A DNA stretch of 64,000 bases from Hymenobacter sp. J193 (GTDB taxonomy: Bacteria > Bacteroidota > Bacteroidia > Cytophagales > Hymenobacteraceae): the NCBI RefSeq assembly GCF_024700075.1, contig NZ_JAJONE010000001.1, positions 4,177,001 through 4,241,000 on the forward strand, written 5' to 3'. The position numbers and the translations under genes were made by a program. The number at the start of each line of letters is the position of its first letter. The stretch's first letter is position 1. Positions 39,520 through 50,652 of the stretch are shown piece after piece. The notes under the pieces are model-generated. The model saw only the letters and a program-made list of their open reading frames with translations, was not told where the DNA came from and did no database searches.

Positions 39520-39723
39520 TTGTTGAAAATATTTTTTGGCTACTCGATTTTGCTCTGCTGTCTTTGGCAAGCACCTGGTAAAACCGGGTGCTGCTGCGCG
39601 CCCATCTTAACCTTATAAAGAGCCAGATGGACAAGCCCACAGAGCCGTTGCCTGACCAAGGAAAAAAGCCGCCGCACGCCGGCCAATGGCGGTGTCCGGT
39701 ACCCTAAAAAGGCCTGCGCAATT

Positions 39724-39749
39724 CCGAACACCCTGTCCGTAATCGGACA
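39724..39749 (+). promoter_or_regulatory. activator inverted repeat TGTCCG-N4-CGGACA, copy 1
   Basis: CTGTCCG-TAAT-CGGACAG is a perfect seven-base dyad (39733-39750), preceded at 39724 by CCGAACA. It lies 73.5 bases from its centre to the sigma54-like element at 39815, a normal upstream-activator distance. A second copy at 43.3 kb has the same features and spacing. Confidence 0.7.
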
Positions 39750-39814
39750 GTTTTTTACTGCCGATAGCAAGGTATTAGGTAGATAAATAATTGAAAGATT
39801 GGTTTTTATAAAAC

Positions 39815-39831
39815 TGGCACTTCGCTTGGCT
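39815..39831 (+). promoter_or_regulatory. sigma54-like -24/-12 promoter, copy 1
   Basis: TGGCAC-TTCGC-TTGGCT. The -24 part is exact; the -12 part reads TTGG instead of TTGC. It lies 35 bases before the HlyD-type gene. The same deviation occurs in copy 2. Confidence 0.65.
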
Positions 39832-39866
39832 AGGGTAGGGCATAACCTCTACACGACCGAACGAAA

Positions 39867-41117
39867 ATGGACAGAGCTATTTCCTCCGCTATTCAAAACC
39901 GCCGCGTCCGCCAGCGCTGGCTGCTGGTGCTGGCTGGCGTGCTGGTAGTAGCCGCCGCGTTGTGGGGCTTCCGCAGCGTGCTGCGCCCCAGCATCAACCA
40001 GGCTGATCTGCTCACCACTACCGTCGAAACCGGCGACGTGGAAGCCACCATTACGGCGGCCGGGCTGGTTATTCCGGCTCGGGAGGCCGTTGTCACCAGC
40101 CCTATTCAGTCGACCATCCGGCGGGTGCTGCTCACGGCCGGCGACGAGGTGAAGCCCGGCCAGCCCATTGTGGAGCTCGATAAGGAAATGACGTCTTCCA
40201 GCCTGGCTAAGCTCCAGGACGAGCAACTCCAGAACCAGAATAAGAGCACTGTGCTGCAACTTTCCCTGGAGCGCAGCCTCAACGACCTGGAAGCCCAGGA
40301 GCAGGTGCAGCAGGAGAAAGTGCGCAGCCTGCAGTCGGCCCTGCGCGACGAGCAGCACCTGCTGAGCATTGGCTCGGGTACTCAGGAAAACGTGCGCCAG
40401 GCCGAGCTCAACCTGAAAATTGCCCAGCTGGAGCTGCAGAAGGTGCGTCGCCAGATAGCCAACCAGCGCCGCTCCAACCAGGCCGATGAGCGGGGTCTGG
40501 GCTATACTCGCCAGATTCAGGCCCGCAGCATTGCCGAGCTGGCCCGCGAGCTGCAGCAGGCCACCATCAGCGCCGACCAGGCCGGGGTGCTTACGTGGGT
40601 GAGCGAGGACGTGGGTGGGGCCGTGAGCAAGGGCCAAGTGCTGGCCCGCGTGGCCGACCTGAGCTCCTACCGGGTGCGCGCCACCGTGGCCGACACCTAC
40701 GCCGACTCCCTGCACGTGGGCGACGCCGTGCGTGTGCGCCTTGGCGGCACTGATTTAGCCGGCACTATTGCCTCCATCAGCCCGGCCGTGGAGAAGGGCG
40801 TGGTCACGTTCTACGCCCGCCTGCGCGAAAACCACCACCCCGTGCTGCGCGCCAACCAGCGGGCCGAAGTGTACGTGGTGACGCGGGCTCACCCCCGGGT
40901 AACGCGCGTGAAAAACGGGCCCTTCTACCAGGGTGGCCGCGAGCAGTCGGTGTTTGTGCTGCAGGATGGCCGCGCCGTGCGCCGCACCGTGCGCTTCGGC
41001 GACGCCAACTTCGACTATGTGCAGGTAGTGCAGGGCCTGCGCCCCGGCGAGGAGCTCATCCTCACCAATATGAAGGACTACGAGCAAGTAAACGAGCTGT
41101 CCGTTTCGGCCAACTAG
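39867..41117 (+). CDS. HlyD/MacA-type periplasmic adaptor
   Basis: 416 residues. One N-terminal membrane helix (WLLVLAGVLVVAAALWGFRSVL) is followed by the membrane-fusion fold: lipoyl half-motifs (ATITAAGLVIPAREAVVTSP; LLTAGDEVKPGQPIVELD), a coiled-coil hairpin (about 105-225), and a beta-barrel part (SYRVRATVADTYADSLHVGD). It would link an inner-membrane transporter to TolC. It is the first gene after a sigma54-like promoter; tolC follows 57 bases later, and the ABC transporter genes lie 2.4 kb downstream, making a MacA-MacB-TolC-like export system likely. Confidence 0.85.
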   Translation: MDRAISSAIQNRRVRQRWLLVLAGVLVVAAALWGFRSVLRPSINQADLLTTTVETGDVEATITAAGLVIPAREAVVTSPIQSTIRRVLLTAGDEVKPGQPIVELDKEMTSSSLAKLQDEQLQNQNKSTVLQLSLERSLNDLEAQEQVQQEKVRSLQSALRDEQHLLSIGSGTQENVRQAELNLKIAQLELQKVRRQIANQRRSNQADERGLGYTRQIQARSIAELARELQQATISADQAGVLTWVSEDVGGAVSKGQVLARVADLSSYRVRATVADTYADSLHVGDAVRVRLGGTDLAGTIASISPAVEKGVVTFYARLRENHHPVLRANQRAEVYVVTRAHPRVTRVKNGPFYQGGREQSVFVLQDGRAVRRTVRFGDANFDYVQVVQGLRPGEELILTNMKDYEQVNELSVSAN

Positions 41118-41174
41118 CAGCGGGCAACTGACAACTGGCAACTGATTTTTCCGCCGCTTCTGCTTTTCTGAGTT

Positions 41175-42668
41175 ATGAAAACCTCTGCTTTTTACCTGGA
41201 AGTATTACGCCTCTGGAGTTTGCTGCTGGCCATTGTGAGCCTGCTGCTGGGCGCGGTCATCAGCGCCTCGGCTCAAGCCCCGACCCTCACGCTGCCCCAG
41301 GCTATTGAGCTTACTCTGGCGCAGTCGGCCGTGGCCAAGCAGGCCGTGACGGCCCGCGAAACCAGCTACTGGCAGTACCGCTCCTTCCGCGCTGACTATA
41401 AGCCCCAACTGGCTCTGGAAGGCGTACTGCCCGACTATAGCCGCTCCATTCTGGCCGTGACGCAGCCCGACGGCACGACTGATTTTCGGGCCGTGCGCAT
41501 CAACACTTCTTACCTGGCTACCACGGCCACCCAAGCCATTGGCTTCACGGGCGGCAAAATCACGGTGGGCTCCACGCTCCAGCGCTTCGATAATCTTGAG
41601 GGCAAGCAGCGCCTTTACAACAGCAGCCCCGTAGCCCTGGGCTTCTTGCAGCCCATCGGGGCCTTCAACGCGCTGAGCTGGAACAAGCGCATCGAGCCGC
41701 TGCGCTACCAGGAATCGGGTCGCCAGTATGCCCAGGACCGCGAAACTATTGCCCAACGCGTGACGGAGCTCTACTTCGACGTGCTGCTGCAGCAGGTGAA
41801 TGCCGACGTAGCCCGCCAGAACCGCCAGGCCAGCGCCGACATGCTGCGCATGGGCCGGGAGCGGTATAAGCTAGGCCGCCTTTCCGAAAACGACCTGCTC
41901 TTGCTGGAGTTGAACCTGCTCGGCGCCGAGCAGGCCGAGCTTCAGGCCGGGGTAGAATCCCGCCAGGCGGCCGTGCAGCTCACGAGCTACGCCGGCCTCA
42001 CGCTGGACCCCGCCGTTCCCCTGGTCGTGCCAGCTTTGCTACCCGCCCTGCAGGTTTCGGCCGACGATGCCCTGGCCCAGGCCCGCCGCTACCGCCGCGA
42101 AACGCTGCTGTTTCAGCGGCGCCTGCTCGAAGCCGACCGCGGCGTGGCCCAGGCCAAAGGCACCACCGGCTTTCAGGCCAGCCTTTCGGCCGGTTTCGGG
42201 CTGGCCAGCAGTGCCGACCAGCTGGGCCGTAGCTACGTGAACCCCAACGACCAGCAGCAGGTGCGCCTGGGCTTCTCCATGCCGATTGTGGATTGGGGCA
42301 AGACGCGCGCCGCCGTGAAAACCGCCGAGCTCAGCCGCCAGCAGGTGCAGCAGCAAGTGCAGCAGGAGCAGCTCACCTTCGAGCAGACCGTGCGCGCCCA
42401 GGCCACCCAGCTCGGGGCGCTAAACCAGCAGCTTGCCCTGGCTTCCCGCGCCGATTCCCTGGCCCAGCGCCGTTACGCCATCAGCCGGGCCACCTACCAG
42501 GTGGGCCGCATTTCCCTCACCGACCTCAACATTGCCCAGAGCGAAAAGGACCGCGCCAAGCGCGCCTACATTGCCGCGCTACGGGCCTGTTGGGTAGCCT
42601 ACTACCAGCTGCGTACCCTCACCCTCTACGACTTTGAGCACCAGCAGCCGCTGGTGGTGGAAGGGTAG
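41175..42668 (+). CDS. TolC-family outer-membrane efflux protein
   Basis: 497 residues with a signal peptide ending ASAQA. Two long repeated alpha-helical halves rich in Gln/Ala (DVLLQQVNADVARQNRQASAD; EQTVRAQATQLGALNQQLAL) and the SLTDLNIAQSEKDRAK motif near the end are typical of OEP/TolC proteins, which form a trimeric channel through the outer membrane and periplasm. Same operon as the adaptor gene. Confidence 0.87.
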   Translation: MKTSAFYLEVLRLWSLLLAIVSLLLGAVISASAQAPTLTLPQAIELTLAQSAVAKQAVTARETSYWQYRSFRADYKPQLALEGVLPDYSRSILAVTQPDGTTDFRAVRINTSYLATTATQAIGFTGGKITVGSTLQRFDNLEGKQRLYNSSPVALGFLQPIGAFNALSWNKRIEPLRYQESGRQYAQDRETIAQRVTELYFDVLLQQVNADVARQNRQASADMLRMGRERYKLGRLSENDLLLLELNLLGAEQAELQAGVESRQAAVQLTSYAGLTLDPAVPLVVPALLPALQVSADDALAQARRYRRETLLFQRRLLEADRGVAQAKGTTGFQASLSAGFGLASSADQLGRSYVNPNDQQQVRLGFSMPIVDWGKTRAAVKTAELSRQQVQQQVQQEQLTFEQTVRAQATQLGALNQQLALASRADSLAQRRYAISRATYQVGRISLTDLNIAQSEKDRAKRAYIAALRACWVAYYQLRTLTLYDFEHQQPLVVEG

Positions 42669-42677
42669 GAGGGAATG

Positions 42678-43169
42678 TTATTGCATCTGCTCAATATGGG
42701 ATTTGCTTATCAGATACTGCTCCCGGGTACAGACACTTATACTTTGATTGCCTTCACGACCCCGGTAAAGTATAACGCAATAGTCGGTATCCTTGTAGAA
42801 ACGAAAATAGCCTTTGGTCAAAGTAGTGTGAAAGTCGCCATCAGCGGTAAGGTGGGCAGCAGAGAGTTGCTGGAGCAGTGCTCTAAAACACTGTCTGGCG
42901 GGGTTAACACTGTATTCCACACGGTTAGTGGTCATACTCTCACCACTAAAATGAGTGAGAAACTGCCCGCTATTCCCGTTAGTGTTATCCAGCCAACGGA
43001 TTTTGCTTCCTCCAACGTCGCCATAAGTAAAGCCGCGCTGCATCATAAACGCATCTTCTGCCCCAAGCTGCCGGCCTAACAGACTACGCATATCCTGCAA
43101 CGATAAACATTGGGCCTGTCCTTCTAGCCCTGCACAAATCAACCATAGCATAAGTAAGAATCTGTACAT
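42678..43169 (-). CDS. small secreted protein of unknown function
   Basis: 163 residues from ATG 43169, chosen because a signal peptide (MYRFLLMLWLICAGLEGQAQ) starts there; the frame is open 47 codons upstream without support. The mature part has no motif I recognise; it includes two Cys near CLSLQDM and CFRALL. It lies antisense between tolC and the ABC ATPase gene, 9 bases after tolC, and is less GC-rich than its neighbours, which suggests a separate origin. Confidence 0.55.
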   Translation of the reverse strand: MYRFLLMLWLICAGLEGQAQCLSLQDMRSLLGRQLGAEDAFMMQRGFTYGDVGGSKIRWLDNTNGNSGQFLTHFSGESMTTNRVEYSVNPARQCFRALLQQLSAAHLTADGDFHTTLTKGYFRFYKDTDYCVILYRGREGNQSISVCTREQYLISKSHIEQMQ

Positions 43170-43217
43170 CGGTTGGAGTGGTAGTGGATTGGATAGCCTG
43201 TAAAACACGGTAGTTGG

Positions 43218-43255
43218 CGCAAAGCCGGGCGGTAGTCCGGCTTTGTGCTTTTTTT
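43218..43255 (+). terminator. Rho-independent terminator
   Basis: CGCAAAGCCGG pairs with CCGGCTTTGTG and is followed by CTTTTTTT on the plus strand. It would end transcripts from the adaptor-tolC operon just before the second sigma54-like promoter. Confidence 0.65.
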
Positions 43256-43302
43256 CAGTTCTGCAAAATGTGGACATCAATATGTTCTTTCCCGACTTAT
43301 TT

Positions 43303-43328
43303 CCGAACACCTTGTCCGTTTTTGGACA
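43303..43328 (+). promoter_or_regulatory. activator inverted repeat TGTCCG-N4-TGGACA, copy 2
   Basis: TGTCCG-TTTT-TGGACA (one mismatch between arms) at 43313-43328, with CCGAACA ten bases upstream at 43303. Centre-to-promoter distance is 73.5 bases, as in copy 1. Confidence 0.7.
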
Positions 43329-43393
43329 GATTATTTACAGAGTAATATAATGATTTACAAGGTAAAGTTCTTTAAATCAATTGTTTATTAAAA

Positions 43394-43410
43394 TGGCACG
43401 CGGCTTGGCT
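43394..43410 (+). promoter_or_regulatory. sigma54-like -24/-12 promoter, copy 2
   Basis: TGGCAC-GCGGC-TTGGCT, again with TTGG in the -12 part. It precedes the ABC ATPase ATG by about 105 bases. Confidence 0.65.
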
Positions 43411-43515
43411 ACTTACCAGGCAGGAAGGGCTCCGATAGTGCAAAACCGGACACTTCTTCCGCCCATAGCAAGCAACTCCCTTCCTTCTCTCTCCCTAAAC
43501 AAACCAGCCAGCCCC

Positions 43516-44262
43516 ATGACCACGATGACTGCCCAACCAAACCACCTGACGGCTGCCCAGGCCACGGCTACCGCCCCGGCGCCTGCTCAGCCTATCATCC
43601 AGCTCACCGACATTGAAAAGGTGTACCAGACCAGCACCGTGGAAACGCTGGCGCTGAACCGCGTGAACCTGACCATCAACCAGGGCGAGTTTGTGAGCAT
43701 CATGGGCCCCTCGGGCTGCGGCAAATCCACGCTGCTCAGCATCATGGGGCTGCTCGACGAGCCCACGCACGGTACCGTTACGCTGTCGGGCCGGGCCGTG
43801 ACGTCGTACTCCGACCGAGAGCTGGCCGACCTGCGCAACCAGCGCCTAGGCTTCGTGTTCCAGAGCTACCACCTCATCAACGACCTCTCGGTGCTCGACA
43901 ACGTGGAGCTGCCGCTGCTTTACCGCAAGGGGGTGTCGGGCAAGGAGCGGCGGCAGCGCGCCCTGGCCGCCCTCGACAAAGTGGGCCTGAACGCCCGCAC
44001 CAGCCACTTTCCCAGTCAGCTTTCGGGTGGGCAGCGCCAGCGCGTGGCCATTGCCCGCGCCCTGGTAGGCCAGCCCGACATCATCCTGGCCGACGAACCC
44101 ACCGGTAACCTCGACTCGGTGATGGGGGAGGAGATTATGGACCTGCTGCTGACCCTGAACCGCCGCGACAACACCACCATCGTGATGGTCACCCACGACG
44201 AGCAGCAGGCCCTCAAAACCGAGCGCATCATCCGCTTCTTCGACGGCAGCCAGGTGAAGTAG
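43516..44262 (+). CDS. ABC transporter ATP-binding protein, MacB/LolD type
   Basis: 248 residues from ATG 43516. The frame is open from 43381, but that would start inside the sigma54-like promoter. Walker A GPSGCGKSTLLS, signature LSGGQRQRVAIARAL, Walker B DIILADEPTGNLDS and the H-loop MVTHD are all present. The pattern fits the MacB/LolD subgroup that works with FtsX-type permeases; the two permease genes lie downstream in the same direction. Confidence 0.92.
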   Translation: MTTMTAQPNHLTAAQATATAPAPAQPIIQLTDIEKVYQTSTVETLALNRVNLTINQGEFVSIMGPSGCGKSTLLSIMGLLDEPTHGTVTLSGRAVTSYSDRELADLRNQRLGFVFQSYHLINDLSVLDNVELPLLYRKGVSGKERRQRALAALDKVGLNARTSHFPSQLSGGQRQRVAIARALVGQPDIILADEPTGNLDSVMGEEIMDLLLTLNRRDNTTIVMVTHDEQQALKTERIIRFFDGSQVK

Positions 44263-44363: not shown

Positions 44364-44951
44364 ATGAAAACGACTTCCACCGCCCTGCTTTCCGAAACCG
44401 CGCTGCTGGCCGACTGCTGCCGCGGCAACGCCCGCGCCCAGCGCCTGCTCTATGACCGGCTGGCGCCTAAAATGCTGGCTGCCTGCCGCCGCTACCTGCG
44501 TAACCCCGACGACGCCGAGGAAGCCATGATGACCGGCTTCGTGAAGGTGTTCCGGGGCCTGGGCAGCTTCCGCCACGAGGGCTCCTTCGAAGGCTGGGTG
44601 CGCCGCATTATGGTGCGCGAGTGCCTGAACGTGCTGGGCCGCCACGAGCCCCTGCTGCTGACCCTCGACGATTGCCCCAGTCTGGCGCCCGCCCTGCCCG
44701 CCGCAGCCGAAACCGACCTACAGGCGGCCGACCTGCTGGCTTTGGTGCAGGGGCTGCCCGTCGGCTACCGCACCGTGTTCAACCTGTTTGCGCTGGAAGG
44801 CTACAACCACCCCGAAATAGCCGCGCTGCTAGGCATTTCGGAGGGCACCAGCAAGTCGCAGCTGAGCAAGGCCCGCGCCCTGCTGCAGCGCCGCGTGGCG
44901 GCGCTTTTCCTTTCCTCCACTCCCGAAACCTGCCTTCGCTATGCTGCTTAG
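44364..44951 (+). CDS. ECF-type RNA polymerase sigma factor
   Basis: 195 residues. Region 2 (LLYDRLAPKMLAACRRYL, NPDDAEEAMMTGFVKVF) and region 4 (GLPVGYRTVFNLFALEGYNHPEIAALLG, ISEGTSKSQLSKARALL) are clear, without an anti-sigma gene next to it. It sits between the ABC ATPase and permease genes and overlaps the first permease gene by 11 bases, so it belongs to the same operon. Target promoters are unknown. Confidence 0.85.
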   Translation: MKTTSTALLSETALLADCCRGNARAQRLLYDRLAPKMLAACRRYLRNPDDAEEAMMTGFVKVFRGLGSFRHEGSFEGWVRRIMVRECLNVLGRHEPLLLTLDDCPSLAPALPAAAETDLQAADLLALVQGLPVGYRTVFNLFALEGYNHPEIAALLGISEGTSKSQLSKARALLQRRVAALFLSSTPETCLRYAA

Positions 44952-46200
44952 CTATCTGAAAATTGCCTGGAAGGTGCTGCTGCGCCGCAAGTTCTTCACC
45001 GCCATCAGCCTGTTTGGCATTTCCTTCACCCTCATGATTCTGCTCGTGCTGGTGGCCGTGGTCGACCACTTCAGCGGGGCCCACGCCCCCGAGAAGCGCC
45101 TCGACCAGATGGCCTTCGTGAATTCCCTGCGGGAGCGGTTCAAGGACGGCGGCTCCAACAACATGCCCGTGAGTGCCTACTTCATCGACAAGTACGTGCG
45201 CACCCTCAAAACGCCCGAGCTGGTGGCCCTCACCTCGATAACGAATGCCGCCACCTCCTTCGCCAACAACCAGACCCTGACGCTGGACGTGCGCTACACC
45301 GATGCCAACTTCTGGCGCCTGATGGACTTTGAGTTTCTGGATGGTCGTCCGTTTTCGGCCGCTGAAACCGACCAGCGCAGCCGCGTGTGCGTTATCAACC
45401 AGCACACGGCCCGCACTTACTTCGGCACCGAGAAAGGAGTAGCCGGCCGCACCCTCGAAATCGGGCCCTACACCTACCGCATTACCGGCGTAGTGCCCGA
45501 TGTACCCGTGATGCGCCTCTACTCCAGCTCCGACGTGTGGGTGCCCTACACTCTGAGCAACGAGCTATTTGGTGACCAGCGCCTGGAAGGCGCGTTTATG
45601 GCCATTATGCTAGCTCCCTCTGCCAGTCAGGTGCCAGCCATGCGCCAGGAGTTTGAGCAGGTTGCCAGGCGCATTCCGCTGCCCGATCCGCAGCGCTTCG
45701 ACAAGCTCTCCGTGCACGCCGACCCGGCCCTGGCCAGCGTAGTGCGCCAGCTGACGAGCAGCCAGGAAAAGGAATCCGATGGGATGGAGCTGTTTCTGAG
45801 CGTGTGTGGGGGGCTGGCGCTGCTGTTTATGCTGCTGCCTGCCCTGAACCTGGTGAACCTGAACGTGACGCGGATTTTGGAGCGCAGCAGCGAGATTGGG
45901 GTGCGTAAGGCCTTCGGTGCCTCGCGCCGGGTGCTGGTAGGCCAGTTCCTGGTCGAAAATATTGTGCTGGCCCTGCTGGGCGGCGTGCTGGGCCTGGGCC
46001 TGGCGTCCGTGGTGCTGTACATCCTCAACGAGTCGCAGTTTATTGCCTACTCCCACTTTGGATTGAGCTGGAGCGCCTTCGCGGCGGGGCTGGGCCTCAC
46101 GCTGGTGTTTGGGCTGATGAGCGGGGTATACCCGGCCTGGAAAATGGCCCGCCTCAACCCCGTAACGGCGCTGCGTGGCAGCGGAGCCGGGCCGCGCTAG
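44941..46200 (+). CDS. ABC transporter permease, MacB/FtsX type (1)
   Basis: 419 residues. An N-terminal membrane helix (FFTAISLFGISFTLMILLVLVAV), a large periplasmic domain, and three C-terminal helices with the FtsX pattern (LNLVNLNVTRILERSSEIGVRKAFGASRR, then ENIVLALLGGVLGLGLASVVLYI, then FAAGLGLTLVFGLMSGVYPAWKMARLNPVTALR). Together with the ATPase and the second permease it forms a mechanotransmission-type ABC transporter. Confidence 0.88.
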   Translation: MLLSYLKIAWKVLLRRKFFTAISLFGISFTLMILLVLVAVVDHFSGAHAPEKRLDQMAFVNSLRERFKDGGSNNMPVSAYFIDKYVRTLKTPELVALTSITNAATSFANNQTLTLDVRYTDANFWRLMDFEFLDGRPFSAAETDQRSRVCVINQHTARTYFGTEKGVAGRTLEIGPYTYRITGVVPDVPVMRLYSSSDVWVPYTLSNELFGDQRLEGAFMAIMLAPSASQVPAMRQEFEQVARRIPLPDPQRFDKLSVHADPALASVVRQLTSSQEKESDGMELFLSVCGGLALLFMLLPALNLVNLNVTRILERSSEIGVRKAFGASRRVLVGQFLVENIVLALLGGVLGLGLASVVLYILNESQFIAYSHFGLSWSAFAAGLGLTLVFGLMSGVYPAWKMARLNPVTALRGSGAGPR

Positions 46201-46239: not shown

Positions 46240-47439
46240 ATGATTCGTCATTTATTTCGCCTGATCTGGAACCGCAAGCGCACCAACGTGCTGCTGCTGT
46301 CCGAAATCTTCTTCTCCTTCGTGGTGCTCTTCGGGGTGGCCACCATTTTCATCGGCTTCGGCCGCAACTACGTGCTGCCCCGGGGCTTTGCCCACGAGCA
46401 GGTATGGCGCTTGAACATTGCCGCCGGGCAGGGCGAGAAAATGCCCCACCCCCAGCTCGACGACGTGCTGCGCCAGGTGCGCGCTCTGCCCGGCGTGCAG
46501 GAGCTTACCCTTACCAGTCAGAACACGCCCTTCCGCTTTATCACCATGAACGGGGAGTTTGAGGCCGGTAAAAACAAGATGGACAACGTAGACCGCTACG
46601 ATGCCGACGACCGGTATGCGGCCACTATGGGTCTGCAGCTGCTGGAAGGCCGCTGGTTCCAGCCCTCCGACGACGCTTCCACGCGTCGGCCGGCCGTCAT
46701 CAGCCGCAACATGCGCGAAAAGCTGTTTGGCGACGCGCCGCGCGTGGTGGGCCAGGTAGTCCGGGAAAGCGCGGGACCCGGCACCGAGACCAGAACGGAG
46801 TTTCAGGTAGTGGGCGTAACGGAAAACGTGCGTCCTCATAGCGACTTCGACGGTGAGGCTCCTTCGATGTGGATGCGCCTGCAGCCTCACGATACCACCC
46901 GGTGGGAAGGCGCCACCGTGCTGGTGCGCGTGGCCCCCGGCCAGGGTGCCGAGCTGCAGCAGAAGATGGTGCACACCATAGCCGGCGTCACCCGCAAGTG
47001 GAGCACCCAGGTATACGCCCTGGAAACCGACCGCCTCGACAAGCTCAAAATCACCGTGGCACCGCTGGCCGCCCTGGCCGTGGTGGGGCTGTTTCTGATT
47101 GTGAATGTGGCCCTGGGCTTGTTTGGGGTGCTGTGGTACAACATCAACCAGCGTCGCGCTGAAATAGGCCTGCGCCGCGCCCTCGGAGCTTCAGGCCCCG
47201 GTATCAGCGCGCAGTTTCTGGGCGAGATGCTGGTGCTGACTACGCTGGGCGTAACGTTGGGCTTGCTGCTGGCGGCGCAGTTTCCGCTGCTGGACGCCTT
47301 CGACGTGCCCTCCAACGTGTATGTACTAGGCATGCTGGCCGCCACCGGCCTCATCTTCCTGCTCACCGCCTTGTGCGCCTGGCAGCCCAGCCGCCTGGCG
47401 GCCCGCATTCAGCCTGCCGTAGCCCTGCGCGAGGAGTAG
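46240..47439 (+). CDS. ABC transporter permease, MacB/FtsX type (2)
   Basis: 399 residues with the same layout as the preceding permease: N-terminal helix (SEIFFSFVVLFGVATIFIGF), periplasmic domain (about 60-270), and C-terminal FtsX helices with NQRRAEIGLRRALGASGPGI and AWQPSRLAARIQPAVALREE at the end. Two different permeases imply a heterodimeric transporter. It is 39 bases after the first permease. A long repeat-rich gap separates it from the response regulator. Confidence 0.88.
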   Translation: MIRHLFRLIWNRKRTNVLLLSEIFFSFVVLFGVATIFIGFGRNYVLPRGFAHEQVWRLNIAAGQGEKMPHPQLDDVLRQVRALPGVQELTLTSQNTPFRFITMNGEFEAGKNKMDNVDRYDADDRYAATMGLQLLEGRWFQPSDDASTRRPAVISRNMREKLFGDAPRVVGQVVRESAGPGTETRTEFQVVGVTENVRPHSDFDGEAPSMWMRLQPHDTTRWEGATVLVRVAPGQGAELQQKMVHTIAGVTRKWSTQVYALETDRLDKLKITVAPLAALAVVGLFLIVNVALGLFGVLWYNINQRRAEIGLRRALGASGPGISAQFLGEMLVLTTLGVTLGLLLAAQFPLLDAFDVPSNVYVLGMLAATGLIFLLTALCAWQPSRLAARIQPAVALREE

Positions 47440-47441
47440 GG

Positions 47442-47720
47442 GTGACAGGTGATGAGGTAACAGGTGACAGGTAACACGTGACAGGTAAAAAGTTGTCATT
47501 GCGAGGCATGTGGCGCATCAAGTCAGGGTCCGAAGCAATCCGTCCTGTACAAAACCAGCCCCGTTCTTCTACCAGAAAGCTCCTGACGCTGGCTACACGC
47601 TGAAGGCTTGTCACATCCTGGGGCTTGATGCGTTGCCCAGGACGGATTGCTTCGCTACACTGGCAATGACGGTGTTTTTTTCCTTGTCACCTATCACCTG
47701 TCACCTGCTCACCTGTCATC
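47442..47720. mobile_element. nested inverted-repeat element
   Basis: Outer arms made of short GTGACAGGT / ACCTGTCAC repeats enclose an inner pair GTCATTGCGAGG...GAAGCAATCCGTCCTG and CAGGACGGATTGCTTCG...GGCAATGAC. No gene lies inside. The inner ends are of a type widely repeated in bacterial genomes. It fills the 318-base gap between permease and response regulator. Confidence 0.55.
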
Positions 47721-47757: not shown

Positions 47758-49155
47758 ATGATTCTGATTGTCGACGACGACGTGGCGGTGCGCACCTCGC
47801 TTAGCCTGCTGCTCAAGCAGGCCGGCTACGTGGCCAAAGCGGTGGGTACGCCCGATGCGGCCCTGGCCGTGGTGCCCGACCCGGCCGTGCAGCTGGTACT
47901 GATGGATATGAACTACTCCCTCGATACCACCGGCCACGACGGGCTGGCGCTGCTGGCGCAGGTGAAGGCCGTGCGCCCGGCCCTGCCGGTCATCCTTATC
48001 ACGGGCTGGGGCTCTATCTCGCTGGCCGTAGAAGGGATGAAGGCCGGCGCTGCCGAGTTTATAACCAAGCCCTGGAACAACGACGCCCTGCTGCAAACCA
48101 TCCGCACCTGCCTGGACCTGGCTGCATCTGATGCTGCACCGGCCCCCGACGATGCCCAGGCGCCCACCCGCCGCCAGCTCGACAAGCAGTTTGCCTTCCA
48201 GAACATCATCGGGCAGGATGCGCGGCTGCTGCACGTGCTGCGCAGCGTGGGCCAAGTGGCCGCCACCGATGCCTCAGTGCTGATCGAGGGTGAGTCGGGC
48301 ACGGGCAAGGAGCTGATTGCGGAAGCCGTGCACCAGAACTCCCACCGCCGCCGCCAGCCCTTCGTGAAGGTGAACCTGGGCGGCATTTCGGCCTCCCTGT
48401 TTGAAAGCGAAATGTTCGGACACCGGCGCGGGGCCTTCACCGACGCCAAAACCGACCGGGTGGGCCGCTTCGAGTTGGCCAACGGCGGCACCATTTTCCT
48501 CGACGAGATAGGGGAGCTGGACATGACCTCGCAGGTGAAGCTGCTGCGCGTGCTGCAGGACCGCACCTACGAGGTGCTGGGCGACAGCAAGGCGCGCCGC
48601 CTCGATATCCGCGTCATCTGCGCTACCAACCGGGACCTGGCCCAGGAAGTGCGCGAGGGCCGCTTCCGCGAAGATTTGTTTTACCGCATCAACCTGATAA
48701 CCGTGCGCCTGCCCGCCCTGCGCGAGCGGCCCACCGACATTCCGCTGCTGGTCCAGCACTTCGTGGATTACCTGCGCGCTACCTACAACCGGGCTTCGCT
48801 GAAGGTTAATACCCGCGCTATGCACTGGCTGCGCGAGCAGCCGCTGCCCGGCAATATCCGGGAGCTGAAAAACCTGGTGGAGCGGGCCGTGCTGGTCAGC
48901 GGCAAGGACGAGCTGGGCCCCGAGGACTTCCAGGCGCAGTTTCGACCCACGGCCGTGCCCGTCGCGGCGCAGCCGGGCGAGCTGCCCGCCGTGGGCTCCA
49001 TCACCCTCGATGAGCTGGAAGCGCAGATGATCCGCAAGTCGATGGAGCACTACGCCGGCAACGTGAGCCGCGTGGCCAAAGCCCTGGGCCTGAGCCGTGG
49101 CGCCCTCTACCGCCGCCTGGAGAAATACGCCATTCCGTTCGACGTGACGCAGTAG
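47758..49155 (+). CDS. NtrC-family sigma54-dependent response regulator
   Basis: 465 residues. Receiver domain with DDD near residue 6-8, phospho-acceptor Asp 50 (VLMDMNYS) and Lys (ITKPWNN). AAA+ domain with Walker A GESGTGKELIAE and Walker B GGTIFLDEIGEL; the sigma54-contact loop reads GAFTDA instead of GAFTGA. The Fis-type HTH is at the end (NVSRVAKALGLSRGALYRRL). The gene is followed by its probable partner kinase and lies downstream of two sigma54-like promoters, so it is the best candidate to bind the TGTCCG dyads. Confidence 0.9.
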   Translation: MILIVDDDVAVRTSLSLLLKQAGYVAKAVGTPDAALAVVPDPAVQLVLMDMNYSLDTTGHDGLALLAQVKAVRPALPVILITGWGSISLAVEGMKAGAAEFITKPWNNDALLQTIRTCLDLAASDAAPAPDDAQAPTRRQLDKQFAFQNIIGQDARLLHVLRSVGQVAATDASVLIEGESGTGKELIAEAVHQNSHRRRQPFVKVNLGGISASLFESEMFGHRRGAFTDAKTDRVGRFELANGGTIFLDEIGELDMTSQVKLLRVLQDRTYEVLGDSKARRLDIRVICATNRDLAQEVREGRFREDLFYRINLITVRLPALRERPTDIPLLVQHFVDYLRATYNRASLKVNTRAMHWLREQPLPGNIRELKNLVERAVLVSGKDELGPEDFQAQFRPTAVPVAAQPGELPAVGSITLDELEAQMIRKSMEHYAGNVSRVAKALGLSRGALYRRLEKYAIPFDVTQ

Positions 49156-49325: not shown

Positions 49326-49353
49326 CGTTTCTTAGCTCTAGCTGTATTGCTTG

Positions 49354-50652
49354 ATGTCACTGCGTCTGAAGTTCCTGCTGTTTGCCTTTCTGATTCATGG
49401 CCTGCTGCTGGGGCTTACGTGGCAGGTACTGCGCCAGCATACGGCGTGGTTTATCGGGGCGGAGGTGCTGCTGGTGGCGTCGGTTATCCTCACGGTGCAG
49501 CTGTACCGGGATTTTGTGCGGCCCTTCCAGTTGATTGCGGCCGGTACGGAAGCCATTCGGGCCAAGGATTTCTCCACCAAGTTTGTGCCCGTGCAGCAGC
49601 GCGAAATGGACCAGCTGATTGACGTTTACAATCACATGATTGATGAGCTGCGCCAGGAGCGCATAACCCAGCACGAGAAAAGCTTTCTGCTGGAACACCT
49701 TATCCAAGCCTCGCCGGCCGGTATTCTGCTGCTGGATTTCGAGGGCCGGATTGAGTCGGTAAACCCGGCGGCGGTGCGGCTGCTACAAGTGCCGGCCGCT
49801 GCGCTGGTAGGCCAGTTGCCCGCTGCCCTGCCCGGCGACTGGGGCGTGGCCCTGGGCAGCCTGCGCCCGGGTCAGCCGCAGGCGGTTCAGCTCTCGGGCA
49901 TGCAGAGCTACCGCGCCCACGCCTCGCACTTCCTCGACCGGGGCTTCACGCGCTACTTTATCGTGCTGGAAGAGCTGACCCAGGACATCATCCGCCAGGA
50001 AAAGCAGGCCTATGAGAAGCTGATCCGGATGATGTCGCACGAGGTCAACAACTCCATCGGGGCCGTCAACTCCATCCTGCAAAGCTTCCACTATTACGCC
50101 CCCCAGCTAGCCCAGGACGACCGCGCCGACTTCACCGAAGCGCTGGATGTATCCGTGACGCGCAGCACGCACCTGGCCAACTTCATTGCCAACTTTGCCC
50201 ACCTGGTGCGCCTGCCCCCGCCTGCGCGCCGCCCCATAGATGTGCACGAGCTGCTGAAATCAACCTGCCGGCTGCTGCAGGTACAGAGCGAGAAGCGCCG
50301 CATCCGCTGGCACTGGCAGCTCACGGAGGGGCCGCTGTTCGTGAATCTCGATGCCCAGCAGCTGGAGCAGGCCCTGCTCAACATTGGCAAAAACGCCCTC
50401 GAAGCCATTGGGGAAGAGGGTAATGTGTGGGTGCGCACCACGGCGCAGCCGCCCACCGTCGTCATCGAAAACGACGGGCCCGGCATTCCGGCCGAAGTGC
50501 AGCGCCACCTGTTCACGCCCTTCTACAGCACGAAGCCCGATGGCCAAGGCATCGGCCTCACCCTCATCCGCGACATCCTGCTGCAGCACGAGTTTGCCTT
50601 CACGCTGCAAACCGAGGAGGCGGGCCGCACGGCGTTTACTATTCGGTTTTAG
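49354..50652 (+). CDS. NtrB-like sensor histidine kinase
   Basis: 432 residues from ATG 49354; a TTG directly before it is in frame. Two N-terminal membrane helices (FLLFAFLIHGLLLGLTWQVL; AEVLLVASVILTVQLY) with almost no periplasmic loop, then HAMP-like region, a PAS domain (ASPAGILLLDFEGRIESVNPAAVRLL), the phospho-acceptor His (MMSHEVNNSIGAVNSIL), N box (LLNIGKNALEAIGEEG) and G boxes (IENDGPGIP; GQGIGLTLIRDIL). It would phosphorylate the adjacent response regulator. Confidence 0.9.
   Translation: MSLRLKFLLFAFLIHGLLLGLTWQVLRQHTAWFIGAEVLLVASVILTVQLYRDFVRPFQLIAAGTEAIRAKDFSTKFVPVQQREMDQLIDVYNHMIDELRQERITQHEKSFLLEHLIQASPAGILLLDFEGRIESVNPAAVRLLQVPAAALVGQLPAALPGDWGVALGSLRPGQPQAVQLSGMQSYRAHASHFLDRGFTRYFIVLEELTQDIIRQEKQAYEKLIRMMSHEVNNSIGAVNSILQSFHYYAPQLAQDDRADFTEALDVSVTRSTHLANFIANFAHLVRLPPPARRPIDVHELLKSTCRLLQVQSEKRRIRWHWQLTEGPLFVNLDAQQLEQALLNIGKNALEAIGEEGNVWVRTTAQPPTVVIENDGPGIPAEVQRHLFTPFYSTKPDGQGIGLTLIRDILLQHEFAFTLQTEEAGRTAFTIRF

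Follow-up and report, generated by a model that had tools for sequence, protein, structure and literature searches.

A shared sigma54-like promoter layout before both operons of a MacAB-TolC-type exporter in Hymenobacter, and its candidate activator

We analysed a 64,000-nucleotide stretch of the Hymenobacter sp. J193 genome (contig NZ_JAJONE010000001.1, positions 4,177,001 to 4,241,000; hereafter the window) in which two operons encode a MacAB-TolC-type exporter. The first operon, preceded by the promoter P1, codes for the periplasmic adaptor and TolC; the second, preceded by P2, codes for an ATP-binding cassette (ABC) ATPase, an extracytoplasmic function (ECF) sigma factor and two FtsX/MacB-like permeases. 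Both promoters have the composite TGTCC-N6-GGACA, 65 bp, TGGCAC-N5-TTGGCT in common, and this architecture recurs with fixed spacing and in syntenic position in genomes of the genus. Judging from the sequence, the two operons very probably form one regulon, in which the phosphorylated response regulator encoded at 47758 would act on tandem dyads and switch on both parts of the exporter through sigma54 RNA polymerase. The rpoN gene is present in this genome and in 120 of 120 Hymenobacter genomes.

Layout and conservation of the two promoters

All features with coordinates lie on the plus strand unless stated otherwise. In P1, the putative activator site O2 (39734 to 39749, dyad TGTCCGTAATCGGACA) is preceded by O1 (39715 to 39730), a degenerate dyad TGCGC-N6-GAACA. 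It is followed by a conserved A/T element (39784 to 39808; TAA-N5-TGA-N5-A-N5-TTR) that resembles the integration host factor (IHF) consensus, by the core TGGCACTTCGCTTGGCT (39815 to 39831), which is sigma54-like in its -24 and -12 boxes with G replacing C at -12, by an inverted repeat close to where transcription should begin (39835 to 39852), and by a third site, O3 (39858 to 39873), whose left half-dyad is poor in the window and whose GGACA (39869 to 39873) lies over the adaptor start codon. P2 carries O1 (43294 to 43309; right half GAACA, left half unrecognisable in the window), O2 (43313 to 43328, dyad TGTCCGTTTTTGGACA), the A/T element (43363 to 43387), which contains AATCAATTGTTTA, a full match to the IHF consensus, the core TGGCACGCGGCTTGGCT (43394 to 43410), and O3 (43437 to 43452), with its GGACA (43448 to 43452) in the non-coding leader at an offset of +54, as in P1. 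A preliminary description of this DNA had reported equal spacing in the two copies, and this was confirmed: counted start to start, the distance from CCGAACA to the dyad is 10 bases and that from the dyad to the core 81 bases in both P1 and P2. The CCGAACA that it had listed as a separate element does stand before both dyads (39724 to 39730 and 43303 to 43309), but proved to belong to a further, degenerate dyad, of which it forms the right half and which stands 19 bp before O2. The sigma54-like core that it had proposed has TGGCAC, the 5-bp gap and TTG, but its -12 box is TTGGC and not the canonical TTGC.

Single parts of the motif occur at chance level in the window and in the genome, and the composite is above chance. 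Without mismatches, TGTCCG-N5-GGACA was found just at the two window sites in the 5.66-Mb genome, and TGGCAC-N5-TTGGCT occurred within the window only as the P1 and P2 copies. With one mismatch allowed, the dyad gave 34 genome sites versus 74 in the reversed control (both strands summed), i.e., no excess, and TGGCAC-N5-TTG[CG]C[AT] gave 4 sites in the genome and 4 in the reversed control. The scan of relatives that the preliminary description had called for was run with TGTCC-N6-GGACA-N50-80-TGGCAC, a pattern without the -12 box; it matched 67 of 120 Hymenobacter genomes, at 93 places, versus 2 hits for the reversed pattern, so that the composite is not equally common in controls. Its length was 87 at 88 of the 93 places (86, 88, 88, 88 and 90 at the remaining five), and a variant with N7 inside the dyad was found in 1 of the 120 genomes. 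Among shuffled 105-bp upstream stretches, 1 of 1880 contained a dyad with at most one mismatch. Searches of this genome with the dyad, core and composite patterns gave no convincing further regulon members. For the canonical TGGCAY-N5-TTGCW the genome had 4 sites and the reversed control 6. Each of the 4 overlaps open frames that run from stop to stop, the longest of 443 to 1577 bases; whether TTGG is the rule in the genus thus cannot be judged from this genome. Two additional TGGCAC-N5-TTGGCA sites also lie in open frames, of 2165 and 833 bases. In G+C-rich DNA such open frames are no proof of genes. Plasmid matches amounted to two partial ones and were of no use.

A gene-anchored survey used the adaptor and ABC genes as anchors in 97 loci, the window and 96 loci from the same genus; the best core and the best dyad were chosen for each row, and columns were numbered from the T of TGGCAC as 0. 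Forty of the 96 loci came from genomes with the regulator but without the exact motif (40 of 42 such genomes; G095 and G099 were excluded as fragmented). The motif-positive genomes were represented by 56 of 67, the window's included (outside the survey were G065, G076, G096, G097, G106, G107, G110, G114, G117, G118 and G119). All 94 usable loci (2 others lacked the gene and 1 was at an edge) have the P1 composite ahead of the adaptor gene, with at most one core mismatch in 92; the two rows with a weak core have a perfect dyad at -81. In the 92 rows the best-matching dyad, with no more than one mismatch, was at -81 in 72, at -82 in 4 and at -80 in 1, and was the partner dyad O1 (-99, -100 or -101) in 15, exactly at -100 in 10. 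With at most two mismatches, O2 was present at -81 in 87 of 94 P1 rows. Relative to the start codon, the P1 core lies at -52 in 92 rows and at -51 in the other two. Before the ABC gene, a P2 dyad with at most one mismatch was found at -80, -81 or -82 in 54 of 93 usable loci (4 lacked the gene); in one of the 54 (L088) the core has 2 mismatches. A further candidate, a P2 row with TTTTCC instead of TTG and 4 mismatches in the dyad, was rejected as a promoter. Between genomes, the spacer has a low identity (median 0.33 for P1 and 0.37 for P2, over 30 columns) and a fixed length. Some aligned genus rows were chosen by TGTCC-N6-GGACA and TGGCAC, and for these the independent evidence is confined to the remaining columns.

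At O1 (dyad at -100), the right half was within one mismatch of GGACA in 65 of 94 P1 and 50 of 54 P2 rows, and the left half within one mismatch of TGTCC in 31 of the 94 P1 rows and a single one of the 54 P2 rows; the left half has decayed in P2. In some loci (L046, L235) O1 is a full or almost full dyad, which identifies CCGAACA as half of a tandem dyad. The columns of the A/T element (-31 to -7) are high in information and agree between P1 and P2: TAA (-31), TGA (-23), A (-15) and TTR (-9). The IHF consensus, with at most two mismatches, matched at -19 in 63 of 94 P1 and 26 of 54 P2 rows, the next best offset giving 18 and 9. The element lies nearer to the -24 box than expected for an IHF site, so that another bending or contact role is possible.

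In the 92 P1 rows with at most one core mismatch, whose cores were picked for likeness to TGGCAC-N5-TTG, the -24 box was TGGCAC in 67 and TGGCAT in 20, and the -12 box TTGG in 90 and TTGA in 2. Among the 54 P2 rows the -12 box was TTGG in 52 and TTGA in 1, and 1 row was without TTG. When TGGCAC alone was required, TTG followed after exactly 5 bp in 77 of 77 genus rows. At the level of the order, the composite without a -12 requirement was found in 95 of 390 Cytophagales genomes (Hymenobacter included; the reversed control gave 9 hits), and 41 of 61 rows had TTG at this position, some of the 20 others being possible chance matches. The letter after TTG in these 41 rows was G in 27, A in 10, T in 4 and C in none. 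By a strict rule P1 and P2 would not be consensus sigma54 promoters, yet on the other sequence features tested they appear sigma54-like.

Outside the genus, 88 composite lengths fell mainly into two clusters about one helical turn apart, 84-87 (33) and 93-97 (48). Among the matches listed from a scan of 84,980 species, 15 non-Hymenobacter ones have the dyad 5-7 bp further out. The vector strength of the lengths was 0.70 at 10.5 bp versus at most 0.35 in 2000 uniform draws, kinship being uncorrected; it was similar at 9.5-11 bp and still 0.63-0.64 at 9 and 12 bp, and two clusters cannot prove a period. According to the available part of PMC4740811, the sigma54 enhancers of Vibrio qrr are insensitive to changes of 10-11 bp and sensitive to changes of 5-6 bp. 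A helical-phase constraint may be common to both systems, but here the length is fixed within the genus and clusters at 84-87 and 93-97 in the order, and the step of 6-7 bp from Hymenobacter (87) to Cyclobacteriaceae-type loci (93-94) is not easily reconciled with the prediction drawn from that source.

Two peculiarities of relatives were noted alongside. In 6 of 8 loci of a second genus of the same family (g2, L258-L265) two full tandem dyads, separated by 5 bp, are flanked by TGGCAC to the left and to the right. TTGG accompanies one of the flanking boxes in 5 of the 6, the opposite one being without TTG; in L258 both are without it. In several Cyclobacteriaceae-type loci (such as L122, L125, L144, L180 and L181) a palindrome GTTCA-N4-TGAAC was seen by eye 5 bp downstream of the dyad.

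The candidate activator at 47758

The gene at 47758 to 49155 codes for an NtrC-type response regulator with a receiver, an AAA+ domain with a GAFTDA loop and a Fis helix-turn-helix (PF00072, PF00158 and PF02954, all above the Pfam cut-off), and is the candidate activator. The sensor histidine kinase gene at 49351 to 50652 (HAMP, PAS, HATPase_c; start codon uncertain) follows it. An ortholog of the regulator (E at most 1e-150) was found in 109 of 120 genus genomes, and the exact motif in 67 of these 109 and in none of the other 11, counts that are uncorrected for relatedness. Eight of the 11 regulator-negative genomes also lack the adaptor at E 1e-20. Apparent absence can be due to fragmentation: G062 has the exporter, a P1-like promoter and a regulator match in pieces over several frames, G108 is among the 11 and has an adaptor with P1, and G094 has an adaptor with no motif seen in the 250 bp inspected. 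The GAFTDA loop was read in 83 of 86 ortholog stretches scanned, the other 3 giving no pattern match. In-frame stops or broken frames were seen in the orthologs of G002, G029, G034, G074 and G062, through assembly error or decay.

The scan of 84,980 species used a tighter composite that required TTGG and a spacing of at most 72, so that -12 letters and upper spacings are censored. It returned 84 stretches, of which the 80 listed contain 84 matches; these 80 comprise 60 from Hymenobacter, 18 from other Bacteroidetes and 2 strays (Roseicyclus and an Acidobacteria bin). A regulator match was present in 13 of the 20 non-Hymenobacter loci. Twelve of these regulators are 41-42% identical to the 47758 protein and divergent from the motif; that of Solirubrum, 81% identical, has the same downstream position as the window's. 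A G[AS]FTDA loop is common to all 13, and wherever the helix is complete (12 regulators) it reads [ST]R..LYRR[LM], like the LYRR helix of the 47758 regulator. The four other strong sigma54 activators of this genome have the loops GAFTGA, GAFTGA, GSFTGA and GSFTSA, and the two helices that could be aligned differ too; in 20 kb around each of the four, no core of five forms tested was found. Among 54 order-level loci (14 short ones of ~1.7-3 kb and 40 longer, with DNA partly shared with the 20-locus set), 25 have a regulator match, all with a G[AS]FTDA or GAYTDA loop.

Mechanism and alternatives

One activator and one sigma54-type regulon, as put forward in the preliminary description, is supported as the best reading by the presence of P1 in 94 of 94 and of P2 in 54 of 93 loci and by the co-occurrence of regulator and motif. 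Outside Hymenobacter it is supported by 12 of 20 loci in which a regulator with this type of loop lies beside the motif in divergent orientation. In the mechanism that we infer, the kinase encoded at 49351 would phosphorylate the 47758 regulator upon a signal, and the phosphorylated regulator would bind O1 and O2, ~100-120 bp upstream of each expected start. It would reach sigma54 RNA polymerase at TGGCAC-N5-TTGGC over DNA presumably bent at the A/T element, and ATP hydrolysis would open both promoters, with the result that adaptor, TolC, ATPase and permeases would be made together. O3 would be one more site for the regulator, through which the promoter is restrained or gated.

It is very improbable that the dyads are operators of another regulator, either a repressor or a second activator, with the 47758 regulator acting elsewhere. 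The order-level motif loci without such a regulator, 29 of 54, speak for this, the short loci being counted among the 54. However, regulators that share this type of loop and recognition helix stand near the motif in several families, 12 of 20 loci having them in divergent orientation, none of the 11 genus genomes without a regulator ortholog has the exact motif, and tandem dyads ~100 bp upstream of the -24 box occupy the usual location for such activators. We regard it as very improbable that TGGCAC-N5-TTGGC is no sigma54 promoter and is used by another sigma factor, e.g., an ECF sigma. An ECF sigma gene does lie within the operon and the canonical C at -12 is missing, but TTG follows TGGCAC after exactly 5 bp in all 77 genus rows and in 41 of 61 order-level rows, a sigma54 activator gene adjoins the operons, and the ECF ortholog is present in just 31 of 93 loci versus P1 in 94 of 94. 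A chance resemblance of the two promoters might be suspected from the frequency of each part alone in the window; it is refuted by the recurrence in related genomes, and its probability is negligible.

Several points weigh against a single sigma54 regulon under the 47758 regulator. No regulator match was found in 7 of the 20 non-Hymenobacter loci and in the 29 order-level loci, among which are ten 12-14 kb stretches (L270-L273, L284-L289) that are Spirosoma-like by guess, and the genus-wide co-occurrence counts ignore relatedness. The canonical -12 C is absent from all 146 gene-anchored rows whose core has at most one mismatch and from all 41 order-level rows with TTG. Given the helical-turn tolerance described in the part of PMC4740811 available, the genus-wide fixed length exceeds the needs of looping. 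Finally, conservation within one genus is partly common descent.

The system most similar to the one described here is perhaps QseF/GlrR of Escherichia coli (glmY, rpoE). As far as the accessible text of PMC6075780 goes, both would have a response-regulator activator, a sigma54 promoter and several TGT...ACA upstream sites, and would further share the help of IHF, an envelope role and a link to an ECF sigma. In the same text QseF sites are TGT-N12-ACA and no downstream site is mentioned; the sites studied here are TGT-N10-ACA, and so fall outside the QseF/GlrR pattern of upstream activating sequences. QseF drives a small RNA and rpoE, whereas an exporter would be driven here. The 47758 regulator scored 305 bits with the GlrR model, far under the 763-bit cut-off. 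Sigma54 control of FtsX-type permeases (COG0577) has been predicted, with enrichment in Bacteroidia among others (PLoS One 2025, PMC12316311), and in this the exporter is alike; the consensus there is TGGCACN5-7TTGCT, and the available portion of the paper names no activator, upstream site or TTGG variant for these exporters. DVU2106 of Desulfovibrio is a GAFTDA activator, and the report on it (PMC4641369) counts this loop with the variants that reportedly retain the ability to activate; in the portion available it describes no linked -12 change. In the open-access literature, as far as its text was accessible, neither the upstream site nor the activator, the fixed three-site layout or a non-C -12 box with GAFTDA was found, which does not show their absence from print. 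Nothing turned up there on Hymenobacter sigma54 promoters, and matches on Cytophagales sigma54 or Bacteroidetes RpoN and efflux were off topic. New here are the third site at +54, the fixed IHF-like A/T element and the -12 box without the canonical C.

The C at -12 is reported to restrain basal transcription (PMC4551910, available part). The GAFTGA loop touches sigma54 region I and is placed to contact DNA, and the activator contacts -20 to -12 (PMC7057263, likewise in the part available). We tentatively propose, as a possible but doubtful extension, a distinct class of sigma54 promoters in Cytophagales with TTGG at -12 (TTGA or TTGT in Spirosoma-like genomes) and a co-changed activator loop, GAFTGA to GAFTDA. 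In this class Hymenobacter would have a closed, length-fixed unit with activator sites flanking the polymerase, and O3 at the start codon would hold a leaky promoter shut until the signal. With an invariably non-C -12 box and a loop other than GAFTGA, the system allows a test of whether activator loop and promoter have co-evolved. If the regulon is as proposed, an orphan exporter is tied to a specific two-component activator, and the motif can be used to find the regulon in other Cytophagales.

Downstream site, operon organisation and neighbouring sequences

GGACA was found at +54 from TGGCAC in 93 of 94 P1 rows, where it lies over the adaptor start codon (AAAATGGACAGA), and in 52 of 54 P2 rows, where it is non-coding. 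Its partner half-site resembles TGYMC in P1; in P2 it is weak. Our guess, about evenly poised, is that O3 is a brake on a promoter that is leaky through its -12 box; among the control elements of sigma54 promoters, a downstream site fixed in place over the start codon would be unusual. Somewhat short of an even chance is given to O3 being non-regulatory, a start-codon context in P1 and a relic of promoter duplication in P2. P2 may indeed have arisen from P1, the partner of GGACA is weak, in P2 most of all, and the surroundings of start codons are often A-rich and often hold rare codons. On the other hand, GGACA is kept in P2 where nothing is coded and most of the leader drifts, and adaptor codons 2-3 are GAC AGA in 93 of 93 in-frame rows (one further row was read one base off), although elsewhere in the same adaptor genes just 7 of 3379 Arg codons are AGA. 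The P1 leader contains an inverted repeat with a stem of at least 6 (G-U allowed) in 84 of 94 rows versus 16% of shuffled leaders. As a conserved RNA hairpin it was set aside: pairing was 0.65, against 0.60 when columns were shuffled (highest of 500 shuffles, 0.62), but the register varies among clades.

The P1 operon consists of the genes for the adaptor (39867 to 41117, HlyD/MacA-like) and the TolC-family outer membrane protein (41175 to 42668). That of P2 comprises the genes for the ATPase (43516 to 44262, LolD/MacB-type), the ECF sigma factor (44364 to 44951, overlapping the first permease gene) and the permeases (44941 to 46200 and 46240 to 47439). Adaptor, TolC, ATPase and FtsX/MacB permease are thus all encoded, as in MacAB-TolC exporters, but MacB is a fused ATPase-permease, whereas here the ATPase and two permeases have separate genes. 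The gap between the tolC and ABC genes (measured between tblastn ends, and hence approximate) exceeds 200 bp in 54 of 54 loci with P2 and is below 200 bp in 31 of 39 without it, a difference that is partly built in because P2 needs about 200 bp of room. The restriction of P2 to long-gap loci is expected if P2 serves a split operon; P2 would then mark the split, and the second copy of the control layout would keep both parts in step. The ECF sigma ortholog, present in 31 of 93 loci, occurs in 31 of 54 with P2 and 0 of 39 without it, a pattern suggestive of a cascade from sigma54 to the ECF sigma.

The gap between tolC and P2 holds a small open frame on the minus strand (42678 to 43163) with no Pfam match. 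In the intergenic region before the regulator gene (47480 to 47700), inverted copies resembling a dispersed repeat (GTCATTGCGAGG ... GGACGGATTGCTTCG ... CAATGACGG) and short repeats with CACCTGTCA were seen by eye.

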